Positions 15,007 to 30,559 of a stretch of 39,777 bases of DNA are shown in pieces. The position numbers and the translations under genes were made by a program. Position 1 is the first letter of the stretch. Each line of letters starts with the position of its first letter. Origin of the DNA: Gemmatimonadaceae bacterium (GTDB lineage: Bacteria; Gemmatimonadota; Gemmatimonadetes; Gemmatimonadales; Gemmatimonadaceae); NCBI GenBank assembly GCA_022843265.1, contig JALHNZ010000018.1:15109-54885 (forward strand), written 5' to 3'. Under the pieces are notes generated by a model, which saw only the letters and a list, made by a program, of their open reading frames with translations, made no database searches and had not been told where the DNA came from.

Positions 15007-16080
15007 TCACATGAGCGCGGCGCGTGCCTCGACTCGCTCACGATGGAACGCATCAATCGCTTCACTGAGCGGCGCGGTACTGAAGCGCACCGGATCCGTG
15101 ACCGGCAATCCCGTTTCGGCTTTGGCCCGTTCGACGGCCTCGCGCGCCTCAATGTCCGACAGATCGTACGTGTTCAACGCGACACCAATCACCGGCGACT
15201 GACGCAGTGGTTCAGCGAGCTGCTCGTACAAACGAATCAGTTCGCTGAGTGAAGGAATCGGTACCCACGGATTGCGATTGATCGTGGTGCGACTGGGCTG
15301 CGCACACAGAATCATCGCGTGCGGCAATGACCCATGCATCAAGCCGAGCGTGACGCCGGAGTAGGCCGGGTGCACAATCGAGCCTTGTCCTTCAACCAGC
15401 ACGATGTCGTGATCAACCGCCGCTTCGAGCGTGAGCTGCTCCGCTGCACCGGCGATGAAATCCGCAATCACCGCGTCAACCGCAATGCCCCGTCCTTCAA
15501 TCAGGATTCCCGTTTGTCCTGTCGCCGCAAAAGACACACGATGGCCAAGCTTTCGTACGCCATCCTGAATCTGCAACTGCGTGGTCATCTTGCCGATGTT
15601 ACAGTCGCTGCCTACGGTCAGAATCACCGTCGCATCGGTCTCACGAACGCGACCGTATGACACATCGAGATTTTCTGGTGGGCGACGCAAGTCGCGAATC
15701 GTGGCACCATGCGCCGCGGCAACAGCGGCGAACTCGGGGTCATCACCAAGCAGCGAGTGCAGTCCACTCCACACATCGAGCCCGGCGGTGAGCGCACGCA
15801 CAACCAGCTCGCGCCAGGCGTGCGGAAACTGACCACCGGCCGGCGCGATACCGATCAGCATCGCCGTTGGCTCGAAGCGCATGGCTTCGTCGAACGTGGC
15901 GACAACAGGAATGCCTCCGCCAAAGCCAAGCACATCATCGGCGGTGCGTCCAGCCGCCGCGCTATCAAGCACGACGGCGACTTCATGCGGTGCATATCGA
16001 ATGCACGCATTGGCGGTCTTGGACGTCAACGGGCCGAAGTTACCCTCGGCGAGAACCAGGAAGCGACGCGAGCGAGACAT
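15007..16080 (-). CDS. DUF1611 family protein (DgcN-like D-glutamate N-acetyltransferase)
   Basis: A 357-residue cytoplasmic protein of the DUF1611 family. The N-terminal Rossmann-like half includes LVLAEGNFGPLTSKTANACI. The C-terminal half is P-loop-like, with GSDCNIGKMTT at 157-167, GQTGILIEGRG and VLVEGQGSIVHPAYSGVTLG. One branch of this family, DgcN, is reported to N-acetylate D-glutamate and usually sits beside the racemase-like DgcA. I see no DgcA gene within this window, so the substrate remains open. The start at ATG 16080 fits the family N-terminus. The gene follows pspA on the same strand by 62 bp. Confidence 0.85.
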   Translation of the reverse strand: MSRSRRFLVLAEGNFGPLTSKTANACIRYAPHEVAVVLDSAAAGRTADDVLGFGGGIPVVATFDEAMRFEPTAMLIGIAPAGGQFPHAWRELVVRALTAGLDVWSGLHSLLGDDPEFAAVAAAHGATIRDLRRPPENLDVSYGRVRETDATVILTVGSDCNIGKMTTQLQIQDGVRKLGHRVSFAATGQTGILIEGRGIAVDAVIADFIAGAAEQLTLEAAVDHDIVLVEGQGSIVHPAYSGVTLGLMHGSLPHAMILCAQPSRTTINRNPWVPIPSLSELIRLYEQLAEPLRQSPVIGVALNTYDLSDIEAREAVERAKAETGLPVTDPVRFSTAPLSEAIDAFHRERVEARAALM

Positions 16081-20175: not shown

Positions 20176-23043
20176 CTATTTCAGCAACGGTTTGAGATAG
20201 TGTCCCGTGTAGCTGCCCTTGGTCGCGGCCACCTGCTCCGGCGTACCTGATGCGACGATCGTGCCACCGCGCACGCCGCCCTCCGGGCCCAGATCCACAA
20301 TCCAGTCGGCCGTTTTGATCACGTCAAGATTGTGCTCAATGACCAGAACCGTGTTGCCGCGCTCCACCAGCTTATGCAACACCTCGAGCAACACGCGCAC
20401 ATCTTCAAAATGCAAACCCGTGGTTGGCTCATCGAGGATATACAACGTGCGCCCCGTGTCACGCTTGGCCAGCTCGGTAGCCAGCTTCACGCGCTGCGCT
20501 TCACCGCCCGACAACGTGGTGGCGCTCTGCCCGAGGTGGATGTAGCCCAGACCCACGTCGCGCAGGGTGATCAGACGCTGCGCGATGCGCGGCTGATTTT
20601 CGAAAACGGTGCACGCTTCTTCCACGGTGAGATCAAGGACATCGGCAATGGAGAGCCCGCGAAAACGCACTTCGAGCGTTTCCCGGTTGAAGCGCTTTCC
20701 TTTGCACACATCACATGACACAAACACGTCGGGCAGGAAATGCATTTCAATCTTGACGAGTCCGTCGCCCTGACACGCTTCGCAGCGCCCACCCTTCACA
20801 TTGAATGAAAAACGCCCGGGTCCGTACCCGCGAATTTTGGCTTCCGGCAACTCGGCAAACAAGTCGCGCACGGGCGTGAACACACCCGTGTACGTGGCCG
20901 GATTGGAGCGCGGCGTACGGCCGATCGGACTTTGGTCGATGTCGATAATCTTGTCGAGATGCTCGATGCCGGAAATGCGATCGTGCGCGCCGGGAATCAC
21001 ACGCGCACGAAAAAAGTGGCGCGAAAGGGAGCGCTGCAGAATGTCGGTCACAAGCGTAGACTTTCCGCTCCCCGACACGCCCGTCACCGCGACAAACAAA
21101 CCGAGCGGAACCTCGGCGGTGACTTCTTTCAGGTTATGCTCACGCGCCCCTTCGATACGCAGCATGCGCTGCGCATCCGGTTTCCGGCGCTTTTTCGGCA
21201 CCGGTACCATGCGCGCGCCGCTCAGAAACTGTCCGGTCATGGACGCGGGTGCGCGCTTGATGTCCTCAACGGTACCCGCAGCAATCACCTCACCACCGTG
21301 CTTGCCGGCGCCCGGTCCGAGATCAATCACATAGTCGGCTTCGCGGATGGTTTCTTCGTCGTGCTCAACCACGATGACCGTGTTGCCCAGATCGCGCAGC
21401 TGTTTGAGCGTGCCGAGCAATCGATCGTTGTCACGCTGATGCAAGCCAATGCTCGGCTCGTCGAGAATGTAGAGTACGCCAACGAGACGCGAGCCGATTT
21501 GTGTCGCCAGTCTGATGCGCTGCGCTTCGCCGCCGGAGAGTGATTCCGCGGAACGATTCAGTGTGAGGTAATCGAGACCGACGTCCACCAGAAAGCGGAG
21601 GCGGTCTTTGACTTCTTTCAGAATGGGGCCGGCGATTCCGGGATCAAGTCCAGGTTTCCCCTTGCCGCGCACCGGTACGGCGTCAAAGAACGTGAATGCG
21701 TCGGCCACTGAAAGCTGGACGAGCTCGCCGATGTTCTGGCGATGCACCGTGACCGCCAACGACTCCGCACGCAATCGCTTCCCCAGACATGTTGGGCACG
21801 GCGCGGCGACCATGTACGCATCGAGCTCGAGGCGAATGCCATCGGAACTCGTTTCGTCGTACCGACGCTGCAGGCTCGCAATAATGCCGTCCCACGTGGC
21901 CACATCTGCGCTCGCCGACACCGACTTGGTCACGGCACGCTTGATACCGCTGCGCTTTGCCGGCGCGCGTCCTTTGTTTTCGATGCCGTACAGCAGCTGC
22001 TTGCGCACCGACGCCGTAAGCTTGCCCCACGGTGTTTTCAGATCGAATCCGAGCTCCTTCGCGAGGCCCGGCAGCAACACGCGCCGCAAAAAACCGTCAG
22101 GCTCGCCCCACGGCAGGATCACACCCTCAAGCAGCGTGAGACTCGGATCACCGAGCAGCAGCTCTTCGCTGACCGATCGTGTGGTGCCGAGACCGCTGCA
22201 CGTTTCACACGCACCGAATGGTGAGTTGAACGAGAAGTGACGCGGTTCGAGTTCGGGCAACGAGATGCCACACTCCGGACAGCCCTGCTTCTCAGAAAAA
22301 AGTGTGGCCTCGGGCTCTTTTCCGTCGTAACGCACAACTTCGACCAAGCCATCGGCGAGTCGAAGGGCCGTCTCAAGCGAATCGGTCAGACGCCCACGAT
22401 CTTCTGCTCGCACCACAAGACGATCCACCACCACGGAGATCGAGTGATTGGCGCGCTTGTTCAGCTTTGGCGGATCGGCGAGTTCAATCAGTTCACCATC
22501 AACCACGGCGCGCACAAATCCCTGACGACGCGCTGAGTCAAAGAGATCGCGGAACTCGCCTTTGCGCCCCTGCACGAGCGGCCCACGAATTTCAATGCGC
22601 GTGTCCTCCGGCCATACGAGAATCTGCTCGGCGATTTGCGCCGGGCTCTGCCGTTGCACCGCACGTCCGCAGTTTGGACAATGCGGCGTGCCCGCACGTG
22701 CATAGAGCAGGCGCAGGTAGTCGTAAATTTCCGTGACCGTGCCAACCGTCGATCGCGGATTGTGTCCGGCCGATTTCTGTTCAATCGAAATGGCGGGCGA
22801 CAGTCCCTCAATCGCGTCGACGTCGGGCTTCTCCATGAGCCCCAGAAACTGTCGCGCGTAGGCCGACAGCGACTCCACGTAGCGTCGCTGTCCTTCGGCG
22901 TAGATCGTGTCGAACGCCAGCGACGATTTGCCCGAGCCGGACAGGCCCGTGATGACCGTCAGTCGGTCGCGGGGAATCGTGACGTCGATATTTCGAAGAT
23001 TGTGCTCGCGGGCCCCGCGAACGATCAGCGCGTTTTCTGGCAT
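20176..23043 (-). CDS. uvrA: Excinuclease ABC subunit A
   Basis: Damage-recognition ATPase of nucleotide excision repair. It has 955 residues, full length for the family. The first Walker [10 protein letters not shown], is at 33-41, followed by [20 protein letters not shown]. There is a zinc motif with [16 protein letters not shown] and CETCSGLG. The first signature is [16 protein letters not shown], with [16 protein letters not shown]. The second half has [16 protein letters not shown], a second zinc motif (CEACQGDG...CDVCKGKRF), [17 protein letters not shown] and [16 protein letters not shown]. It diverges from cutA. I see no clear LexA box in the 100-bp spacer. sdaAB follows on the same strand after 74 bp. 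Confidence 0.98.
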
Positions 23044-23143
23044 AGTCTTGTAAGTAACCGGGATTGCAGCCTCTCAGACAAGACCAGGGTGCGGCTTGCA
23101 GGTTCCCGTTCGCGTCCGGGCGCATTTTGCGCTATCGTCGAGG

Positions 23144-23506
23144 ATGCCAACTTCCCTCGATCCCAGCGATGTGGTGCTCGCCATCACAACGGTTGCTACC
23201 GCGGACGACGCCGAGCATCTCGTGCGCGCCTTGCTCAGCGCGCGGCTGATTGCGTGCGGCACGCTCATGCCAGGAGCGCGATCCCTGTACCACTGGGAGG
23301 GTGAGGTCACGGACGAGAGCGAGGTGGTCGTGCTGCTCAAAACGGTTGCCGAGCAACTCGAGGCCATCGGTGACGCCTTCACGTTGCACCACCCGTATGA
23401 CGTGCCCGAGCTGCTCGTGTTCCCGACGGCCGCCGGGCTTGAGGGATACCTGAGTTGGGTGCGCGACGAAACGTCGCTCGGTCAGGTGCCGCCAAACCAT
23501 TCGTGA
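23144..23506 (+). CDS. cutA: CutA1 divalent-cation tolerance protein
   Basis: A 120-residue member of the CutA1 family, small trimeric proteins with a ferredoxin-like fold linked to copper tolerance, whose exact role is debated. Family blocks are VLAITTVATADDAEHLVRALL, LIACGTLMPGARSLYHWEGEV, ESEVVVLLKTVAEQLE and HPYDVPELLVFP. The cysteine in LIACGT and the motif SLYHWEGEV match CutA. ATG 23144 was chosen; the frame is open to 23096, but that segment lies in the divergent promoter. The gene is convergent with phoD, with a 10-bp gap and no visible terminator. Confidence 0.94.
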   Translation: MPTSLDPSDVVLAITTVATADDAEHLVRALLSARLIACGTLMPGARSLYHWEGEVTDESEVVVLLKTVAEQLEAIGDAFTLHHPYDVPELLVFPTAAGLEGYLSWVRDETSLGQVPPNHS

Positions 23507-23516
23507 CCGTAGTCGC

Positions 23517-25112
23517 TCAGGAGCGTTGCGGCTCGAGCTCCACACTCCAGAGTTTCTTTCCTGTGACATCCCAGATTGCGGCCGTGAGCGACTGCCGCTG
23601 CGGATCCAGATCAAGCGTGCCATAAAACTGGAGGTCATCGCTTGGCGGGCGGTTCGGCTTGGGCGCCGTGCTTGCAAAGCGCACTTCTGGTCCGAAGGTG
23701 TTGTCGAGCGCGTTTGGTCCGAAAGTCCCCGCATGCATCGGCCCGGCGACAAACTCCCAGAATGGATCAAACTCGGCGAAGCTCGCCCGCTCCGGCGAGT
23801 AGTGATGCGCGGCGGCGTAGTGTACGTCAGCGGTCAGCCAAACCACATTCCGCACCTTCGCCTGTTTCAGACCGCGCAGCAGCTGCGCGATCTCGTGCTC
23901 TCGGCCCAGCGGCCGACCGTTGTCGGCATTGGCCACCGCTTCGAAGTTTCGTTCGCCGCCACGCATGCGATCCGGGACCACCAGCCCGATCGGCATGTCA
24001 CTGGCGACGACTTTCCACACGGCGCTGCTTGCACGAAGCGACCGCTCAAGCCACGCGAGTTGTGTCTCACCAAGCAACGCGGTCGCGGCCGACGGCTCCG
24101 CCTGTCGATTGTTTGAGTTGGCGCCTCGATAGCTGCGCATATCAACGACGAATACTTCGAGCAGCGGCCCGTAGGAGAACGAACGATACACGCGCCCCGG
24201 TTCTTCAACAGAACGACGTATCGGAACGAACTCAAAGAGCGCTTGTTTGGCCCGTTCCGCGAGCACGCGCACGCGCTTCTCGGTGTATCGCGGGTCCGAC
24301 TCAAGCACGAGATCGTGAAACCAGTTGTCGACCACTTCGTGATCGTCCCACTGCGCAATCATGGGCACGTGTGCACCGAACCGTTGCGCGTTCGCGTCCA
24401 TCAAATTGTACGCGTACTGTCCGCGATAGTCGTCCAAGGTCTCCGCCACCTTGGATTTTGCTTCCGTGACCACATTGCGCCATACGGTGCCGTCGTCGAG
24501 CGTGACCTCCGCGTTGAGCGGTTGGTCAGCATACACGTTGTCGCCAGAGTGAATGAACACATCGGGGTCGGCGCGCCGCAGCGCGTCGTACATGCGAATG
24601 CCGCCGCGCGACTCATCGATGCCCCATCCCTGGCCCACCATGTCGCCGGACCAGGCAATGCGCAGCGGGCGCCGCGCGGCGCGCGGGGCCGTACGGAACT
24701 GTCCCTCGACGGGCTCGCTCAGCGCACCTGGCGAATCAACGCTCTCGTAACGCGCTCGGTAGAAAACAGTCTCACCGGACGGAAGGTCCGTCAGATCGAG
24801 GTGCGTCGTAAACGCGTGATCCGCGTGCGACGGAATCGATTGCACGCGGCGCACATTCGAGAAGCGCTCAGAGGTCGACCATTCAACCGAGAGAATGGCA
24901 GGCCGGTCGGACCGACTCCACAGCATCGCACGGTCAGCGAGCGGATCGCCGCACTGCACACCGTTCGGCATCACCGGCCGCAACCGATCAGCGGTGATGA
25001 TCGCCGGTGCACCGTGAATCGGGAGCCATGGAACCCGATTCACGAGCACTGACGCCGTTGCCGCCAAAGACCCGCTGAGGAATGCGCGCCGCCGAAGCAT
25101 CAACTCATCCAT
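23517..25112 (-). CDS. phoD: PhoD-type alkaline phosphatase / phosphodiesterase, Tat-exported
   Basis: A 531-residue metallophosphatase of the PhoD family, which removes phosphate from phosphomono- and diesters outside the cytoplasm using metal ions. The N-terminus carries a Tat signal (RRRAFLSGSLAATASVLV). A PhoD N-terminal Ig-like domain spans about 40-140 (PNGVQCGDPLADRAMLWSRS). The catalytic domain has metal-site blocks AWSGDMVGQGWG, VFIHSGDNVYADQPL, AQWDDHEVVDNWFHD and WLTADVHYAAAHHY. It begins 4 bp after the susD stop, so it is the third gene of a susC-susD-phoD operon. That implies a phosphate-ester substrate imported by the SusC-type receptor. The exact substrate is unknown. Confidence 0.93.
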   Translation of the reverse strand: MDELMLRRRAFLSGSLAATASVLVNRVPWLPIHGAPAIITADRLRPVMPNGVQCGDPLADRAMLWSRSDRPAILSVEWSTSERFSNVRRVQSIPSHADHAFTTHLDLTDLPSGETVFYRARYESVDSPGALSEPVEGQFRTAPRAARRPLRIAWSGDMVGQGWGIDESRGGIRMYDALRRADPDVFIHSGDNVYADQPLNAEVTLDDGTVWRNVVTEAKSKVAETLDDYRGQYAYNLMDANAQRFGAHVPMIAQWDDHEVVDNWFHDLVLESDPRYTEKRVRVLAERAKQALFEFVPIRRSVEEPGRVYRSFSYGPLLEVFVVDMRSYRGANSNNRQAEPSAATALLGETQLAWLERSLRASSAVWKVVASDMPIGLVVPDRMRGGERNFEAVANADNGRPLGREHEIAQLLRGLKQAKVRNVVWLTADVHYAAAHHYSPERASFAEFDPFWEFVAGPMHAGTFGPNALDNTFGPEVRFASTAPKPNRPPSDDLQFYGTLDLDPQRQSLTAAIWDVTGKKLWSVELEPQRS

Positions 25113-25116
25113 GTGA

Positions 25117-26622
25117 TCAGTTCTTGAAAGGCATGATCAGCGGCGAGGTGCGATTCGCCACAAGAATCGCGTTCAGGTCATGACGAATCTCGACCGTGCG
25201 AGCAGACGTGTTCATAACGAACGCATCCATTCCCGTCTCACCCGGAAGAAATGATGGAATGACCGCCGTTAGTGCGTTGTCGCTTCCGCCCACGTTGCTG
25301 TTCGACTGTGCTTCGGCGAGCGGTGCTGGAAACCGCATACCGAGATCGCTCATGCGCCGACCCTCTGCCAGAAAGATCTCCTGTCGCATCAGATACAGCA
25401 CGTAATATCCATCGTTGTCGGTCGCGATCGCGTTGATCCGGTCAGCGGTGACCGTTGTGCCAGAGATTGTTGGCACGCGTACCGGCGCGTTGAGCCGATA
25501 CAAAATCAGTCCGGCTCGAAACTCTGATCCTGGTCTGAAGGCAACGCGATAGTCGCTGCTGTCCGGATACAGCACCAGCCCACCGTTTCGACCACGACGC
25601 TGGTTCCGCGTATCAACAAGCTCCGTCGGCCGTTGCTGCACAAGTGTCAGCAGCTGCAGCAATCGTGACTTCGCTTCGCTCAGATTGCTGGTGGCAAGCG
25701 CCGATTCCGCCAGAATCAGATGCGATTCTTCCGCCTTGAGCACAGAAAGTGGGCTCTGGGCTTGCGCCGCGCGATTGGGGTACTTGGGGTCCAACAACTC
25801 CATGCGTGGCAGCACCTGATAGTTGTTGTTCGCTGTTGAGATCAACGCCTGAAAAGAGTTGCCAGGCCCGCTCACCCCGTCAAAGACGGCCGTTCGCAAA
25901 AATGCAGGCGCCGCCGCAAGCAACGCCGTTGCTTCGGTCACTGCAGATGATCGCTCGCCCAGACGATAGTGCGCACGGGCCAGTGCAGCGGTGCACGCAT
26001 TGCGGAGCGCCGCATCCGCGTAGAGTGAGCGCGCGCGGCGCAGATCCGCGATCGCCAGTCGTAAATGCCCCGGGCCATCGACTAGCGGACCAAGGGCAAC
26101 GGCGGGCATGGCGGTGAAGTTCTCGCCAGCGAAAATCGAACCCATGGCGCGGTAGAACAACAGGTCGGCTTCGTTGCGTACGCGATTCACCGTATCCGAA
26201 ACGATCACCTTGTCGAGTCCGTACGTGGCACTTTCGCGCAAGCGAGCGATCGCCGTGAAGGTCGATCGAACATCGAGGTCCTGATTGTCGAACCGCGGAA
26301 TGTCAAAGACCTTATTTTGCGTTGTGTAGTTGTTGAAGTAGTTATCCGACGCGATCTCCACGTTGTCCATGACCGCGTTGATCGCCTGGAGGTACGCGCG
26401 TTCCGTGCCACGAACCCACGTGCGAGCGGCGTCAGGCGAGCGGAGAAACGCGTCCGTGGTCACGTTCGGATTCTGCACGCCCGTTGGATCGAACTGATCG
26501 CAGCCGAGGCTCAGCAAAAGGGTGGCGCATGCCGCCGTGTACACGAGGTGGCGCAGCGCGCTGTACATTCGTGATGGTCGTGTGCGAATCGCGTGCGCAG
26601 GAACTGCAGGTGAGCTATGCAT
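25117..26622 (-). CDS. SusD/RagB-family outer-membrane lipoprotein
   Basis: A 501-residue surface lipoprotein that should cap the SusC-type channel and bind its substrate. A signal peptide ends in a lipobox, LSLGC, with C41. Alternative start M19 (ATG 26568) gives a shorter signal. The mature start (DQFDPTGVQNPNVTTDAFL) and the TPR-like helices (SATYGLDKVIV, ADLLFYRAMGSIFAGENF and later ACTAALARAHYRLGE) match the helical SusD fold. The start codon lies 1 bp after the susC stop. The gene closes with HDLNAILVANRTSPLIMPFKN, and phoD begins 4 bp on. SusD proteins are known mainly for glycans. The phoD neighbour suggests a phosphorylated ligand here. Confidence 0.88.
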   Translation of the reverse strand: MHSSPAVPAHAIRTRPSRMYSALRHLVYTAACATLLLSLGCDQFDPTGVQNPNVTTDAFLRSPDAARTWVRGTERAYLQAINAVMDNVEIASDNYFNNYTTQNKVFDIPRFDNQDLDVRSTFTAIARLRESATYGLDKVIVSDTVNRVRNEADLLFYRAMGSIFAGENFTAMPAVALGPLVDGPGHLRLAIADLRRARSLYADAALRNACTAALARAHYRLGERSSAVTEATALLAAAPAFLRTAVFDGVSGPGNSFQALISTANNNYQVLPRMELLDPKYPNRAAQAQSPLSVLKAEESHLILAESALATSNLSEAKSRLLQLLTLVQQRPTELVDTRNQRRGRNGGLVLYPDSSDYRVAFRPGSEFRAGLILYRLNAPVRVPTISGTTVTADRINAIATDNDGYYVLYLMRQEIFLAEGRRMSDLGMRFPAPLAEAQSNSNVGGSDNALTAVIPSFLPGETGMDAFVMNTSARTVEIRHDLNAILVANRTSPLIMPFKN

Positions 26623-26623
26623 G

Positions 26624-29569
26624 TCAGAAACCCAGGGAGAGCGTCAAAAGGAAGCTGCGAGCCGATGAGTCGGTCGAGTAGTTGAAGCCGCCTACCGCAG
26701 CAGAGCCTTGGCCAATGGCGCCTGACAGATCGACTTCCGGATCAAAGCTCGAGGCAGACCATGCCCAAGGGTTTGTTATGGCAAACGCGATGCGCGCGGA
26801 TGACGCGCCGCGCGGGACGAGTGATTCAGGCAGGCGATAGTCGGCCGATAAGGTGCGCATCTTGACGTAGTCGGTCTTCTCTACGAACCGGTCGAAGACA
26901 TCAAGCCAGATTGCCGAACGCTGATTCGCGGTGACGACGACTTCGGGCAGCGCGTCTTGCGGCAGTCCGTAGAGGAAACGGAAGTGGCGATCAAAAGAAT
27001 GGGAGGACGCACCGAACTGGTAGTCGGCATTGGCGCCCAGTGTGAGTCGGCTCCCGAGCTGCAGCTGTGCCGACATCGTTCCGAACTTGTCCGGATGCGG
27101 CTTCCCGAGATACTGCAGGAACTCCGTCTGCACACGCTTGCCTTGCTCATCGAACGTTGTGCGCGCACCGCGCAGATATCCTACCGGTTGGCCCGCTTCG
27201 ACCACCGCCTGAATGGTACGCTCGCTCAACCCACCGAGATTGAAGACCGGCGTACCGCCGGTGTTCACCATGCGGTTACGCAACGTGTTGTAAGAGGCAG
27301 AGAGCGTCAACCGCGCGCCGGACATGGCGATCGGTACAACGGACGCCCGCACTTCGCTTCCCTCATTCGAAATTTCGCCAACGTTGCGAAGCTGCGCCGG
27401 TGCGCCGGTCGAGGGCGGCGACGGGGCATTGAGCAGCGCATCGCTCGTCAGTGAGTTGTAGATCGTTGCACTGATGGTTGCACGTTCACCAGCGAAGCTC
27501 AGATCAAAACCGCCCTCGAATGTCCGTGTGCGCTCGGGGCGGAGTTCGTTGTTGCCGGGCTGACCAAAGGTTGCCGCGAGCGCGCCGCCGAGGGAGTTGA
27601 ACGCAATCGTCTCGTCGTTTGCAAAGGGGCGCGGGAAGTTACCAGCGACACCGTAGTTTCCGCGCAGGCGAAGCTGCGACACCCAGGCCGTCGGAATCGA
27701 TTTGCGGAACCAGGACTCGCTCGACAGGTCGTAGGCCAGTCCAAGCTTGGGATAGTACTGCGCGCCGACCGTTGTGCCGAAGGCGGTGTTCTGGTCAGCT
27801 CGGACACCCACTTCGACGAAATACCGGTCGAAGAAGCCAATGTTGGTCTGTCCGTACAGCCCGTAGTTTGCGACGCGCAAGGTTGCATCGGCGCCCGCAG
27901 TGACGCCCGCACCAGTAATCGTCTCGGCGCCATCGCGCACATTCGTCGCGGTGTAGGCAACCTGCTCATCATCATTGCGAAATAACTGTCCGCCCAGCAC
28001 CGAGATAAACGACATCGGTCCCAGGCTCGCCGTGTGCTGTGCGTTGAGCTCGGCCGTCAGCCCGGCGTAGGTGCGCTGAAAGTTCTGAATGGTGCCACGA
28101 TCCGACGTTCCTGCGGGAAAGCTTCGGACGTGGATCAGGTATTCGTTGGTTGTGATCGAGCGTTCGGTGGAAAGACGCTGATCGAGCCCGACGTTGGCTT
28201 TGAAAAGCAGTGCATCCGAAGCCTGAAACGACACGCCATGTGACGTGGTAAAGCGTCGAACACGGACACTGTTGTCCTGCAGCGCCTCGGCCCGTGCAAC
28301 GAAAGCCTGCAGTGCGTTCCACGCCGAGTCGCCGAGCAGGCCCAGATCCGGATTGAAACCAAACGCATTCGAGCGGCCGCCCTCCACGAACCAGAGCGAG
28401 TTGTAGCCACCCGAGTTACCGTTTCGGAATCGCGGATAGAAATCCTGATTGTAGCTCAACGAGCCTGTATAGCGTCCGCGTGTGCCCATTTCGGCACCCA
28501 CACCCGTGCGGAACGCCAGCGCCGAGTTTTCTCCTTCAACGCGATGACTTTCTGAACCGCGCGCGCTGCCCGACACACTGAACGAAAATCCGCCGCTTCC
28601 GCCTTCCATACTCCCGCTGTACTGCTGCGTTGTCCCGTTGCGGTAGAGCAGGTCCTTGGTGCGTTCAAAATGGTGCCACTGCGTCTGCGGTGTTTCCGTG
28701 CCCACCTGCGCCGACATCGAAAAGCGAGTGGGTCCGGCCGACCCTTTGCGCGTGAAGATCTGAATCACGCCATTCGCTGCGTCGGAACCGTAGAGCGTTG
28801 TGGCCGCACCGCCTGGCACGTACTCAATACGTTCGATATTGTCGAGCGGCAAGTCGGCTATCGCACTCGTCGCATTGCCCTGATGCGAGTTACCACCAAG
28901 GTTCATGCTCAGCGTCGCGGGTGTGTTCAGATTGTCAACGCGTACCCCGTCCACATAGATCACCGGCGTTGAGTTCGTGCTGACCGAGTTGATGCCGCGC
29001 GTACGAATCAATGATCCCGTCCCGGCCTGTCCGGACATCATACGGATCTGAGCGCTGGGAAGCTTTGCCTGCAGCAGTTGATCAAGACGGGTGACGGGCG
29101 CGCCTTCAATTTGTTCACGTGTGATCACGTCAATCGTCGTGGAGAGGCGACGCTGTTCGATCTCACCACCTTGTCCGGTGACGATGACGTTTTCCAGCGA
29201 CAGTGCGCTGCGCGACAGGGTGACGGCCACGCTGTTTGGCCCCGCGGACAACGTCTGCTGGATCTGTCGTGGAGCGAAGCCGATGCGGCGGATATCGAGT
29301 GTGGTACTTCCTACTGGAAGCCCGGTGAGGACGAACTGTCCTCGGTCATCGCTTTGCGCCACACGCGTGCTGCCAGCAATACGGACCTGCGCGCTGGCGA
29401 CTGGGGCGCCGGACTCGTCGCGCACTTGACCGTTAAGCGTGGCTGGACCCTGCGCTTGCAACGCAGTCGCGCCGAACGTCGCAGACAGTATCATACACGC
29501 TACGAGTGGGGCCGCCCGTAAACGCGCGACGAGACGGCGCAAGGCGAACAGTTCTCTGATAGCAGTCAC
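26624..29569 (-). CDS. SusC/RagA-family TonB-dependent receptor
   Basis: Outer-membrane active transporter, about 981 residues from GTG 29569. After a signal peptide (LVACMILSATFGATALQAQ) comes a carboxypeptidase-regulatory-like domain (LNGQVRDESGAPVASAQVRI, GQFVLTGLPVGSTTLDIRRI). The plug domain follows (STTIDVITREQIEGAPVT, RTRGINSVSTNSTPVIYVDG). The rest is a large beta-barrel ending in the typical aromatic terminus LLTLSLGF. The start is uncertain: the frame is open to TTG 29713, with ATG 29701 also possible, but those parts do not look like a signal. No clear TonB box is seen. The susD gene begins 1 bp after the stop, followed by phoD. Confidence 0.9.
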   Translation of the reverse strand: MTAIRELFALRRLVARLRAAPLVACMILSATFGATALQAQGPATLNGQVRDESGAPVASAQVRIAGSTRVAQSDDRGQFVLTGLPVGSTTLDIRRIGFAPRQIQQTLSAGPNSVAVTLSRSALSLENVIVTGQGGEIEQRRLSTTIDVITREQIEGAPVTRLDQLLQAKLPSAQIRMMSGQAGTGSLIRTRGINSVSTNSTPVIYVDGVRVDNLNTPATLSMNLGGNSHQGNATSAIADLPLDNIERIEYVPGGAATTLYGSDAANGVIQIFTRKGSAGPTRFSMSAQVGTETPQTQWHHFERTKDLLYRNGTTQQYSGSMEGGSGGFSFSVSGSARGSESHRVEGENSALAFRTGVGAEMGTRGRYTGSLSYNQDFYPRFRNGNSGGYNSLWFVEGGRSNAFGFNPDLGLLGDSAWNALQAFVARAEALQDNSVRVRRFTTSHGVSFQASDALLFKANVGLDQRLSTERSITTNEYLIHVRSFPAGTSDRGTIQNFQRTYAGLTAELNAQHTASLGPMSFISVLGGQLFRNDDEQVAYTATNVRDGAETITGAGVTAGADATLRVANYGLYGQTNIGFFDRYFVEVGVRADQNTAFGTTVGAQYYPKLGLAYDLSSESWFRKSIPTAWVSQLRLRGNYGVAGNFPRPFANDETIAFNSLGGALAATFGQPGNNELRPERTRTFEGGFDLSFAGERATISATIYNSLTSDALLNAPSPPSTGAPAQLRNVGEISNEGSEVRASVVPIAMSGARLTLSASYNTLRNRMVNTGGTPVFNLGGLSERTIQAVVEAGQPVGYLRGARTTFDEQGKRVQTEFLQYLGKPHPDKFGTMSAQLQLGSRLTLGANADYQFGASSHSFDRHFRFLYGLPQDALPEVVVTANQRSAIWLDVFDRFVEKTDYVKMRTLSADYRLPESLVPRGASSARIAFAITNPWAWSASSFDPEVDLSGAIGQGSAAVGGFNYSTDSSARSFLLTLSLGF

Positions 29570-29806
29570 TGGAGGAGGGGCTGAGAGGGTGTCAAACACA
29601 TCACACGCATGAACGAACGACCATGTAGTGACGAGACTACCCAATCCCCAACTGCACGCGACGACGTCGCGGTCACAGCATGGCAACGAGCACGTTGCCA
29701 TTGCATGGTGCAATGGCGCGCGACGAAACCGTAACCGCAGATGCCAGTTCCGTTACACCACGGGCACGCGTTGACACTTGCGTGACGCTCGGTCGTCAAT
29801 GTTGTG

Positions 29807-30559
29807 ATGATAGAACTCTCCGCCCTCACGAAGCGGTACGGCAAGTTCACCGCCGTAGATCGCCTCGACCTCGTTGTGCCGGCTGGCGAACTGTTTGGAT
29901 TCCTCGGACCGAACGGCGCTGGCAAGACCACCACCATGCGCATGATCGCGGGCATCTTGCGGCCCAGCGAAGGCACTGTTCGCATTGCCGGCGCCGATCT
30001 TGTGCGCGATCCGCTCGCGGCCAAACGCTCGCTCGGGTTCATTCCCGATCGTCCGTTCATTTACGAGAAACTCACCGGCATTGAATTTCTGCGCTTTGCC
30101 GCCGGGCTCTACGGCGCGCAAGGAAAAGCCGTGGATCACCGCGCCAACGAGTTTCTCGCGCTGTTCGATCTGGAGCCGTGGCGCGACGAGCTCGTGGAGA
30201 GCTACAGCCATGGCATGCGACAGAAACTGATCATTGCCAGTGCGTTCGTTCACGAACCGGCCGTTATCGTGGTGGACGAACCAATGGTTGGTCTTGATCC
30301 CAAGTCGTCGCGGACGCTCAAAGAGCTGTTCCGCCGCTACACCGACGACGGACACACCGTCATGATGTCCACGCACACACTCGAAGTGGCCGAGGGCATG
30401 TGTGATCGCATTGGCATCATGCAGCGCGGCAAACTGGTCGCGTGTGGCACCATGAAGGAACTGCGTCTCGAGAATGATGCGGACGATCTCGAGGATATTT
30501 TCCTCAAGCTCACTGGCGAAAAGATCACGCGCGACGTGGCTGAGGTGTTGCATGCGTGA
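29807..30559 (+). CDS. ABC transporter ATP-binding protein (ABC-2 type exporter)
   Basis: A 250-residue cytoplasmic ATPase. Walker A is GPNGAGKTT, the signature SHGMRQKLIIASAF (a variant of LSGGQ), Walker B VIVVDEPMVGLDP and the switch histidine in MMSTHTLEVAEG. This is the class that drives ABC-2 permeases. Start is GTG 29804 or ATG 29807. The gene ends 8 bp inside the permease gene, so the two are co-translated. A TTGACA (29771-29776) lies upstream, but no matching -10 at normal spacing. The gene diverges from susC. Substrate unknown. Confidence 0.92.
   Translation: MIELSALTKRYGKFTAVDRLDLVVPAGELFGFLGPNGAGKTTTMRMIAGILRPSEGTVRIAGADLVRDPLAAKRSLGFIPDRPFIYEKLTGIEFLRFAAGLYGAQGKAVDHRANEFLALFDLEPWRDELVESYSHGMRQKLIIASAFVHEPAVIVVDEPMVGLDPKSSRTLKELFRRYTDDGHTVMMSTHTLEVAEGMCDRIGIMQRGKLVACGTMKELRLENDADDLEDIFLKLTGEKITRDVAEVLHA

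Follow-up and report, generated by a model that had tools for sequence, protein, structure and literature searches.

A recurrent susC-susD-phoD operon of Gemmatimonadota is a candidate system for uptake and dephosphorylation of pantetheine compounds

Here we describe a susC-susD-phoD operon located in the window, which is the whole 39,777-nucleotide stretch of a Gemmatimonadaceae genome that was analysed. In this soil-type bacterium, the operon probably serves to pull a phosphate-bearing molecule across the outer membrane and to clip phosphate from it. Our preferred reading, to which we assign a probability of roughly 0.45 based on genomic neighborhoods and homology, is that the cargo would be a pantetheine compound (CoA, dephospho-CoA, or 4'-phosphopantetheine), which would be taken up across the outer membrane and dephosphorylated in the periplasm. 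SusC and the surface lipoprotein SusD would capture the small phosphorylated molecule, import would be driven by TonB energy, and the Tat-exported PhoD would strip the phosphate off the cargo in the periplasm. Gene content, linkage, and homology were observed directly, and every substrate and reaction proposed here is inferred from them.

The operon consists of three intact genes on the minus strand, with intergenic gaps of 1 bp (susC/susD) and 4 bp (susD/phoD) (Table 1). This arrangement, with phoD as the sole enzyme gene, had been put forward in a first-pass annotation of the same DNA and was confirmed from the coordinates and translations. The susC gene starts with GTG, and the mechanically called ORF begins at position 29713 with TTG. 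The flanking genes (uvrA, a convergent cutA, and an ABC transporter pair, with a glycerol kinase gene farther away) are unrelated to the operon. No sigma-70-like site was detected in 29570-29803, a scan across 23000-30000 returned no promoter-like site, and terminator-like sites in that interval were not above the number found in shuffles. Elsewhere in the window, a gene encoding a DUF1611 protein (15007-16080) adjoins a PspA/IM30 gene.

Table 1. Features of the susC-susD-phoD operon, in window coordinates.
Feature	Position	Strand	Description
phoD	23517-25112	-	531 aa; Tat-type secreted PhoD phosphatase/phosphodiesterase, predicted Asp-ligand subfamily; Pfam, relative of 2yeq, alignment
PhoD catalytic domain	23580-24641	-	PF09423, residues 158-511 of P0001
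Twin-arginine motif RRRAFL of PhoD	25077-25094	-	Translation and motif scan
susD-like surface lipoprotein gene	25117-26622	-	501 aa; 1 bp after susC; lipobox
Lipobox LSLGC of SusD-like protein, Cys41	26500-26514	-	Read off the translation
susC, TonB-dependent outer-membrane transporter	26624-29569	-	981 aa from GTG; PF13620, PF07715, PF00593
Plug domain of SusC	28766-29155	-	PF07715, residues 187-316 of P0003
CarboxypepD_reg N-terminal domain of SusC	29219-29440	-	PF13620, residues 92-165 of P0003
Region upstream of operon	29570-29803	-	Common with divergent ABC transporter gene; operon promoter expected here

Judged by Pfam, the PhoD and SusC assignments can be regarded as secure. PhoD matches PF09423 with 307.9 bits (cut-off 27) and PF16655 with 71.3 bits (cut-off 30), and its best fold match is the PhoD of Bacillus subtilis (2yeq, E 2.1e-25). 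For SusC, the CarboxypepD_reg, Plug, and barrel domains all score above the Pfam cut-offs; the protein falls below the cut-offs of the SusC/RagA model TIGR04056 (318.6 versus 368.25 bits) and of the signature TIGR04057 (27.4 versus 46.2 bits). The evidence for SusD identity is weaker than that for SusC and PhoD, and consists of the lipobox, the position after susC, and weak homology. Searched directly, the SusD-like protein had no Pfam or NCBIfam match. It is weakly homologous to proteins from L044 and L045 (E 2.2e-4 and 4.8e-4), both of which pass PF07980 (SusD_RagB), and the lipobox cysteine is invariant in 4/4 rows of alignment A1. The AlphaFold model is of low confidence (pLDDT 50.7) and TPR-like, and its matches to SusD structures, all at E>0.001, occur together with other TPR proteins.

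The PhoD family, with B. subtilis PhoD and Streptomyces phospholipase D as exemplars, also includes an Asp-ligand subfamily (excerpt of PMC4223295). By inspection, and at a place where the alignment is gapped, the window PhoD has SGD where the B. subtilis type has ASC, which contains the Cys-180 iron ligand. D157 of the window protein is invariant in 8/8 aligned rows, and identity to classical PhoD is ∼22-29%.

The operon is real and recurrent, yet patchy. A PhoD search over 395 Gemmatimonadota genomes found close orthologs in 20, and the surroundings of all 20 were inspected. The susC-susD-phoD genes occur in identical order and strand in 5/20 (G000, which is the window genome, G012, G026, G095, and G288), and because the arrangement recurs in four genomes besides the window genome, it is more than chance. 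None of these five operons contains an enzyme gene other than phoD. A SusCD pair (43-50% alike) is convergent to phoD in four genomes of one other family, f5 (G096, G125, G126, and G186), where the arrangement in G125 was read across two contigs. The other 11/20 have no SusCD in the inspected flank, which extends upstream of phoD by 7.9 kb or more in every genome. In G003, which belongs to the genus of the window genome, phoD is found at the equivalent place beside the ABC genes and SusCD is missing. The conserved linkage on which the first-pass annotation had staked its reading is thus present in relatives, but patchy. Its statement that the three genes are co-transcribed is supported by the spacing, by the recurrence, and by the PusCD precedents discussed below. 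Two side observations concern these loci: in G003, the space between phoD and the ABC genes is taken not by SusCD but by a lipoprotein carrying Big_2 and FGE-sulfatase domains (L029:1826-3778), and the genome search flagged one in-frame TAG in the PhoD matches of L051 and L053 (G083 and G106).

The candidate cargo is suggested by the wider neighborhoods of this SusD. When the same 395 genomes were searched with the SusD alignment, 28 rows from 25 genomes scored above 490 bits, and the next score was 290. Of these rows, 21/28 lie in a locus with a gene for a ThnT-like S58 hydrolase and 5/28 lie beside phoD alone (26/28 together); the remaining two are an orphan second copy in G096 and a contig-end fragment (G108 C222). 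In a search of its own, the ThnT-like gene exceeded 540 bits in 22/395 genomes (next score 252), and 21 of these 22 have a SusD of this clade alongside, the exception being G094. From the SusD group ranking next (36 rows, 245-290 bits), eight loci were inspected, and none carries any pathway gene. The phoD-linked proteins form a single clade in the SusD tree (100/100). Its neighbor is the clade of ThnT-linked proteins from the same family, a placement that is moderately supported (87/61), and the loci with both genes fall outside. In both trees, of PhoD and of SusD, the window proteins fall among these groups. The orphan SusCD of G096 (L194:6632-10909) has neither a phoD nor a ThnT-like gene, is 54-63% identical to the f1 clades, and lies near a GNAT/CN-hydrolase fusion gene. 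A second SusCD clade was observed within a conserved cluster of Gemmatimonadaceae, a candidate pantetheine/pantothenate catabolic locus (L187:54-12019, L190:788-11827, and L042:6660-18627), which comprises genes for SDR, SSF, M20, SusC, SusD, ThnT-like S58, a metallo-beta-lactamase-fold protein or class III transaminase, and an aldehyde dehydrogenase.

The PhoD orthologs of the four f5 genomes are linked to the locus with the ThnT-like gene, and an association of PhoD with ThnT-like genes was also found apart from SusCD. PhoD was scanned against 84,980 species genomes, and the best 80 of 278 loci were examined. Within this set, five contigs labelled Acidobacteria or Cyanobacteria (L074, L076, L092, L095, and L096; Acidobacteria-type contigs below) have PhoD near a ThnT-like gene, which is 45-47% identical; the gene order differs, and four of the five contigs add SDR, tartrate-dehydrogenase-like, M20, SSF, or transaminase genes. 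SusCD is absent from 5/5, and therefore the PhoD/ThnT-like link arose or persisted apart from SusCD. Three of these loci contain a TonB receptor with a PF25183 barrel and are without SusD (L092:3578-5803, L095:4661-8002, and L096:453-3650); the receptor overlaps phoD in L095 and is short (741 aa) in L092. The other PhoD loci among the best 80 of 278, which come from Proteobacteria, Actinobacteria, Verrucomicrobia, and others, have no ThnT-like neighbor. In the PhoD tree, the five Acidobacteria-type rows and L101, a 5.8-kb contig with no pathway gene on it, form one clade (starred in the tree). In a Methylibium MAG (L120:15734), this PhoD subfamily is represented twice, the second copy lying ∼6 kb away and on the other strand.

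The identities of the neighboring genes in the relatives' loci were taken from homology; simple ORF picking gave some wrong-strand ORFs. The S58 family includes D-Ala esterases, nylon hydrolases, and aminopeptidases. Among solved proteins, the relatives' S58 hydrolase is nearest to ThnT in two comparisons (228.3 bits versus 135.2 for the next different protein, and 207.6 versus 119.5). The nucleophile threonine of ThnT was located via mutant entries in the alignment, and Asn-Thr-Thr is invariant in 10/10 relatives. ThnT cleaves CoA-derived pantetheinyl groups and itself acts on one attached to a carbapenem (excerpt of PMC6097109). The class III transaminase of the relatives scores above the AptA cut-off and is nearest to the beta-alanine:pyruvate transaminase 4b98, the PF00180 enzyme passes the tartrate dehydrogenase cut-off, and the M20 hydrolase passes NF009558. 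The loci also encode a secreted type I phosphodiesterase (PF01663), an SSF symporter, aldehyde dehydrogenases, an SDR, and a GntR/FCD-type regulator; the PanF pantothenate-symporter model matched weakly (72.4 and 119.2 bits versus a cut-off of 328.05). Two loci lack phoD, and the phosphatase place is held by a Tat-type calcineurin-like metallophosphatase (L195:4309-5901 and L196:2599-4200), which in L196 carries PF16370/PF16371. Judged from the N-terminal sequence by inspection and a hydropathy scan rather than a signal-peptide program, the ThnT-like protein, the phosphodiesterase, PhoD, and the metallophosphatase look exported, and the M20 hydrolase, the transaminase, and the dehydrogenases do not.

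Classical bacterial pantothenate degradation begins with pantothenase and continues with the oxidation of pantoate and dimethylmalate. Starting from CoA, the route proceeds through phosphopantetheine, pantetheine, and pantothenate to pantoate and beta-alanine. The reaction types predicted for the relatives' locus resemble this breakdown of coenzyme A/pantothenate. In the relatives, the secreted type I phosphodiesterase would cut CoA, PhoD or the metallophosphatase replacing it would dephosphorylate, the secreted ThnT-like hydrolase would cleave pantetheine, and the SSF symporter would bring pantothenate into the cell. The M20 hydrolase would split pantothenate into pantoate and beta-alanine; the beta-alanine branch may then be served by the beta-alanine:pyruvate-type transaminase and an aldehyde dehydrogenase, and the pantoate branch by the short-chain dehydrogenase, an aldehyde dehydrogenase, and the tartrate-dehydrogenase-like enzyme. 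Put in its widest form, the SusCD/TonB system would import CoA or 4'-phosphopantetheine as a nutrient, and PhoD of this subfamily would be the enzyme that removes phosphate from phosphopantetheine in the periplasm. The loci of the relatives would cover every step that leads from CoA into central metabolism, with the M20 protein as the bacterial pantothenase and with a dimethylmalate dehydrogenase among the enzymes encoded. We offer this wide form tentatively and consider it less likely than not. As of 2023, no protein was known for pantothenase (PMC10393543).

A genome search of the window genome (95% complete) found no ThnT-like gene, the best M20 protein scored 131.6 bits (cut-off 428), and no close tartrate-dehydrogenase ortholog was found, the best match being 43% identical versus 73-82% in locus-bearing genomes (a range that leaves out the query's own genome). 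Orthologs of all three are likewise lacking from G012, G095, and G288, such that 4/5 operon genomes are without the downstream route. Of the 20 genomes with phoD, six pass the M20 model (G026, G096, G126, G186, G191, and G312), and these six also hold the close tartrate-dehydrogenase orthologs; G125 has an M20 fragment at 423.5 bits. Only G026 combines the operon with the full route, which there is equipped with a separate SusCD copy. It follows that the window system has to function in the absence of the route, whether for phosphate supply, for salvage, or with a changed cargo. Since the window genome keeps the front end only, the operon there would be mainly a phosphate source, and perhaps would supply pantetheine for salvage.

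These absences also fit the main rival explanation, in which the operon is a general organophosphate scavenger similar to PusCD, with SusCD importing assorted phosphodiesters (lipid headgroups and nucleic acid pieces) and PhoD freeing phosphate under limitation. We consider this a credible account, though one we would bet against. The PusCD pair of Flavobacterium is co-located with phosphomono- and diesterases and is induced by phosphate depletion (excerpt of PMC8115612), and B. subtilis PhoD acts as both a phosphomonoesterase and a phosphodiesterase (excerpt of PMC4223295). A survey reports pstSCAB, PhoR-PhoB, and phoD in Gemmatimonadota (excerpt of PMC10581226), and the window genome has a pstB above its cut-off. 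However, its best PhoB relative scores 219.5 bits, below the TIGR02154 cut-off of 296.2, and the search for a Pho box upstream of the operon, a check proposed in the first-pass annotation, gave no match that stands out: the best match in the window covers 12/18 positions and is equalled in 23% of shuffles, those of four relatives cover 11-13/18, and, with the window included, 6-23% of shuffles reach such scores, so that 5/5 upstream regions have no Pho box above shuffles. The relatives' loci carry a GntR/FCD-type regulator, and the tie to a ThnT-like gene in 21/28 rows of the SusD clade is unexplained by phosphate scavenging alone.

More specific cargoes fare worse. The phosphoester reading of the first-pass annotation is partly supported, by the spacing, by the operon recurrence in 5/20, and by the PusCD precedents; its particular suggestions of phospholipid, teichoic acid, or nucleotide gained no support of their own, and the neighborhoods of the SusCD clade and the PhoD subfamily point to coenzyme A/pantetheine. 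A system in which PhoD cuts the phosphodiester backbone of teichoic acid or a phospholipid and SusCD imports the pieces would agree with the family exemplars named above, yet the window PhoD appears to be of the other subfamily and is distant from classical PhoD, 5/5 operons have no further enzyme gene, and the transaminase, tartrate-dehydrogenase-like, and M20 genes of the relatives are a misfit, which makes this very improbable. Teichoic acid was at first attractive as cargo via the D-Ala esterases of the S58 family, and was dropped; the transaminase belongs to the beta-alanine type, and ThnT is the solved protein closest to the S58 hydrolase. We also consider it unlikely that phoD is an incidental passenger with an unrelated job beside a SusCD that imports unphosphorylated cargo such as beta-peptides or nylon-like amides. 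The 11/20 phoD genomes without SusCD nearby, the retention of phoD in G003, the nylon hydrolases of the S58 family, and the orphan SusCD copy of G096 are consistent with a passenger. Against it, PhoD accompanies the ThnT-like pathway in the Acidobacteria-type contigs, where SusCD is missing, phoD lies beside a convergent SusCD in the four f5 genomes and in one operon with SusCD in five genomes, and a different secreted phosphatase substitutes in the two phoD-less loci (L195 and L196).

Should the pantetheine reading be true, a coenzyme would be eaten as phosphate, carbon, and nitrogen via a dedicated outer-membrane system, a substrate would be assigned to a PhoD subfamily of Gemmatimonadota and Acidobacteria-type genomes, and the relatives' loci would give a candidate gene for the bacterial pantothenase, the first enzyme of the breakdown route of vitamin B5. 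Among the matches listed for open-licence papers, judged by title, none links SusD to coenzyme A and pantetheine, PhoD to phosphopantetheine, or TonB/SusC to pantothenate; no title on gemmatimonad SusD concerns such a system, and none of the matches listed deals with dimethylmalate in pantothenate catabolism.

Several known systems can be compared with the operon and the relatives' loci. The window PhoD shares with B. subtilis PhoD (2yeq) the Pfam domains PhoD and PhoD_N, the fold match, and a Tat-type signal, but is 22% identical to it and, by inspection, has Asp in place of the Cys-180 iron ligand. As compared to classical pantothenate degradation, the M20, SDR, aldehyde dehydrogenase, PF00180, and transaminase genes of the relatives match the reaction types; the M20 protein is a putative assignment to the pantothenase step, for which no protein was known in 2023 (PMC10393543). 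In thienamycin biosynthesis, ThnR-ThnH-ThnT convert CoA to cysteamine (excerpt of PMC6097109), and the pyrophosphatase, phosphatase, and ThnT-like cuts of the relatives would follow the same order; the window genome has no ThnT-like gene, and the relatives' enzymes appear to be secreted versions and are tied to uptake and catabolic genes. A parallel to the window operon is the PusCD system of Flavobacterium, in which a SusCD-like pair is likewise clustered with periplasmic phosphomono-/diesterases. Its enzymes are other phosphodiesterases and PhoA, with phoD rare (15/102 strains), and its induction by low phosphate has been shown, whereas the window operon has PhoD and comes from another phylum (excerpt of PMC8115612 for PusCD). 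A SusCD pair with a phosphatase is therefore of a known kind, and the new part is the probable cargo family together with the proposed route of the relatives.
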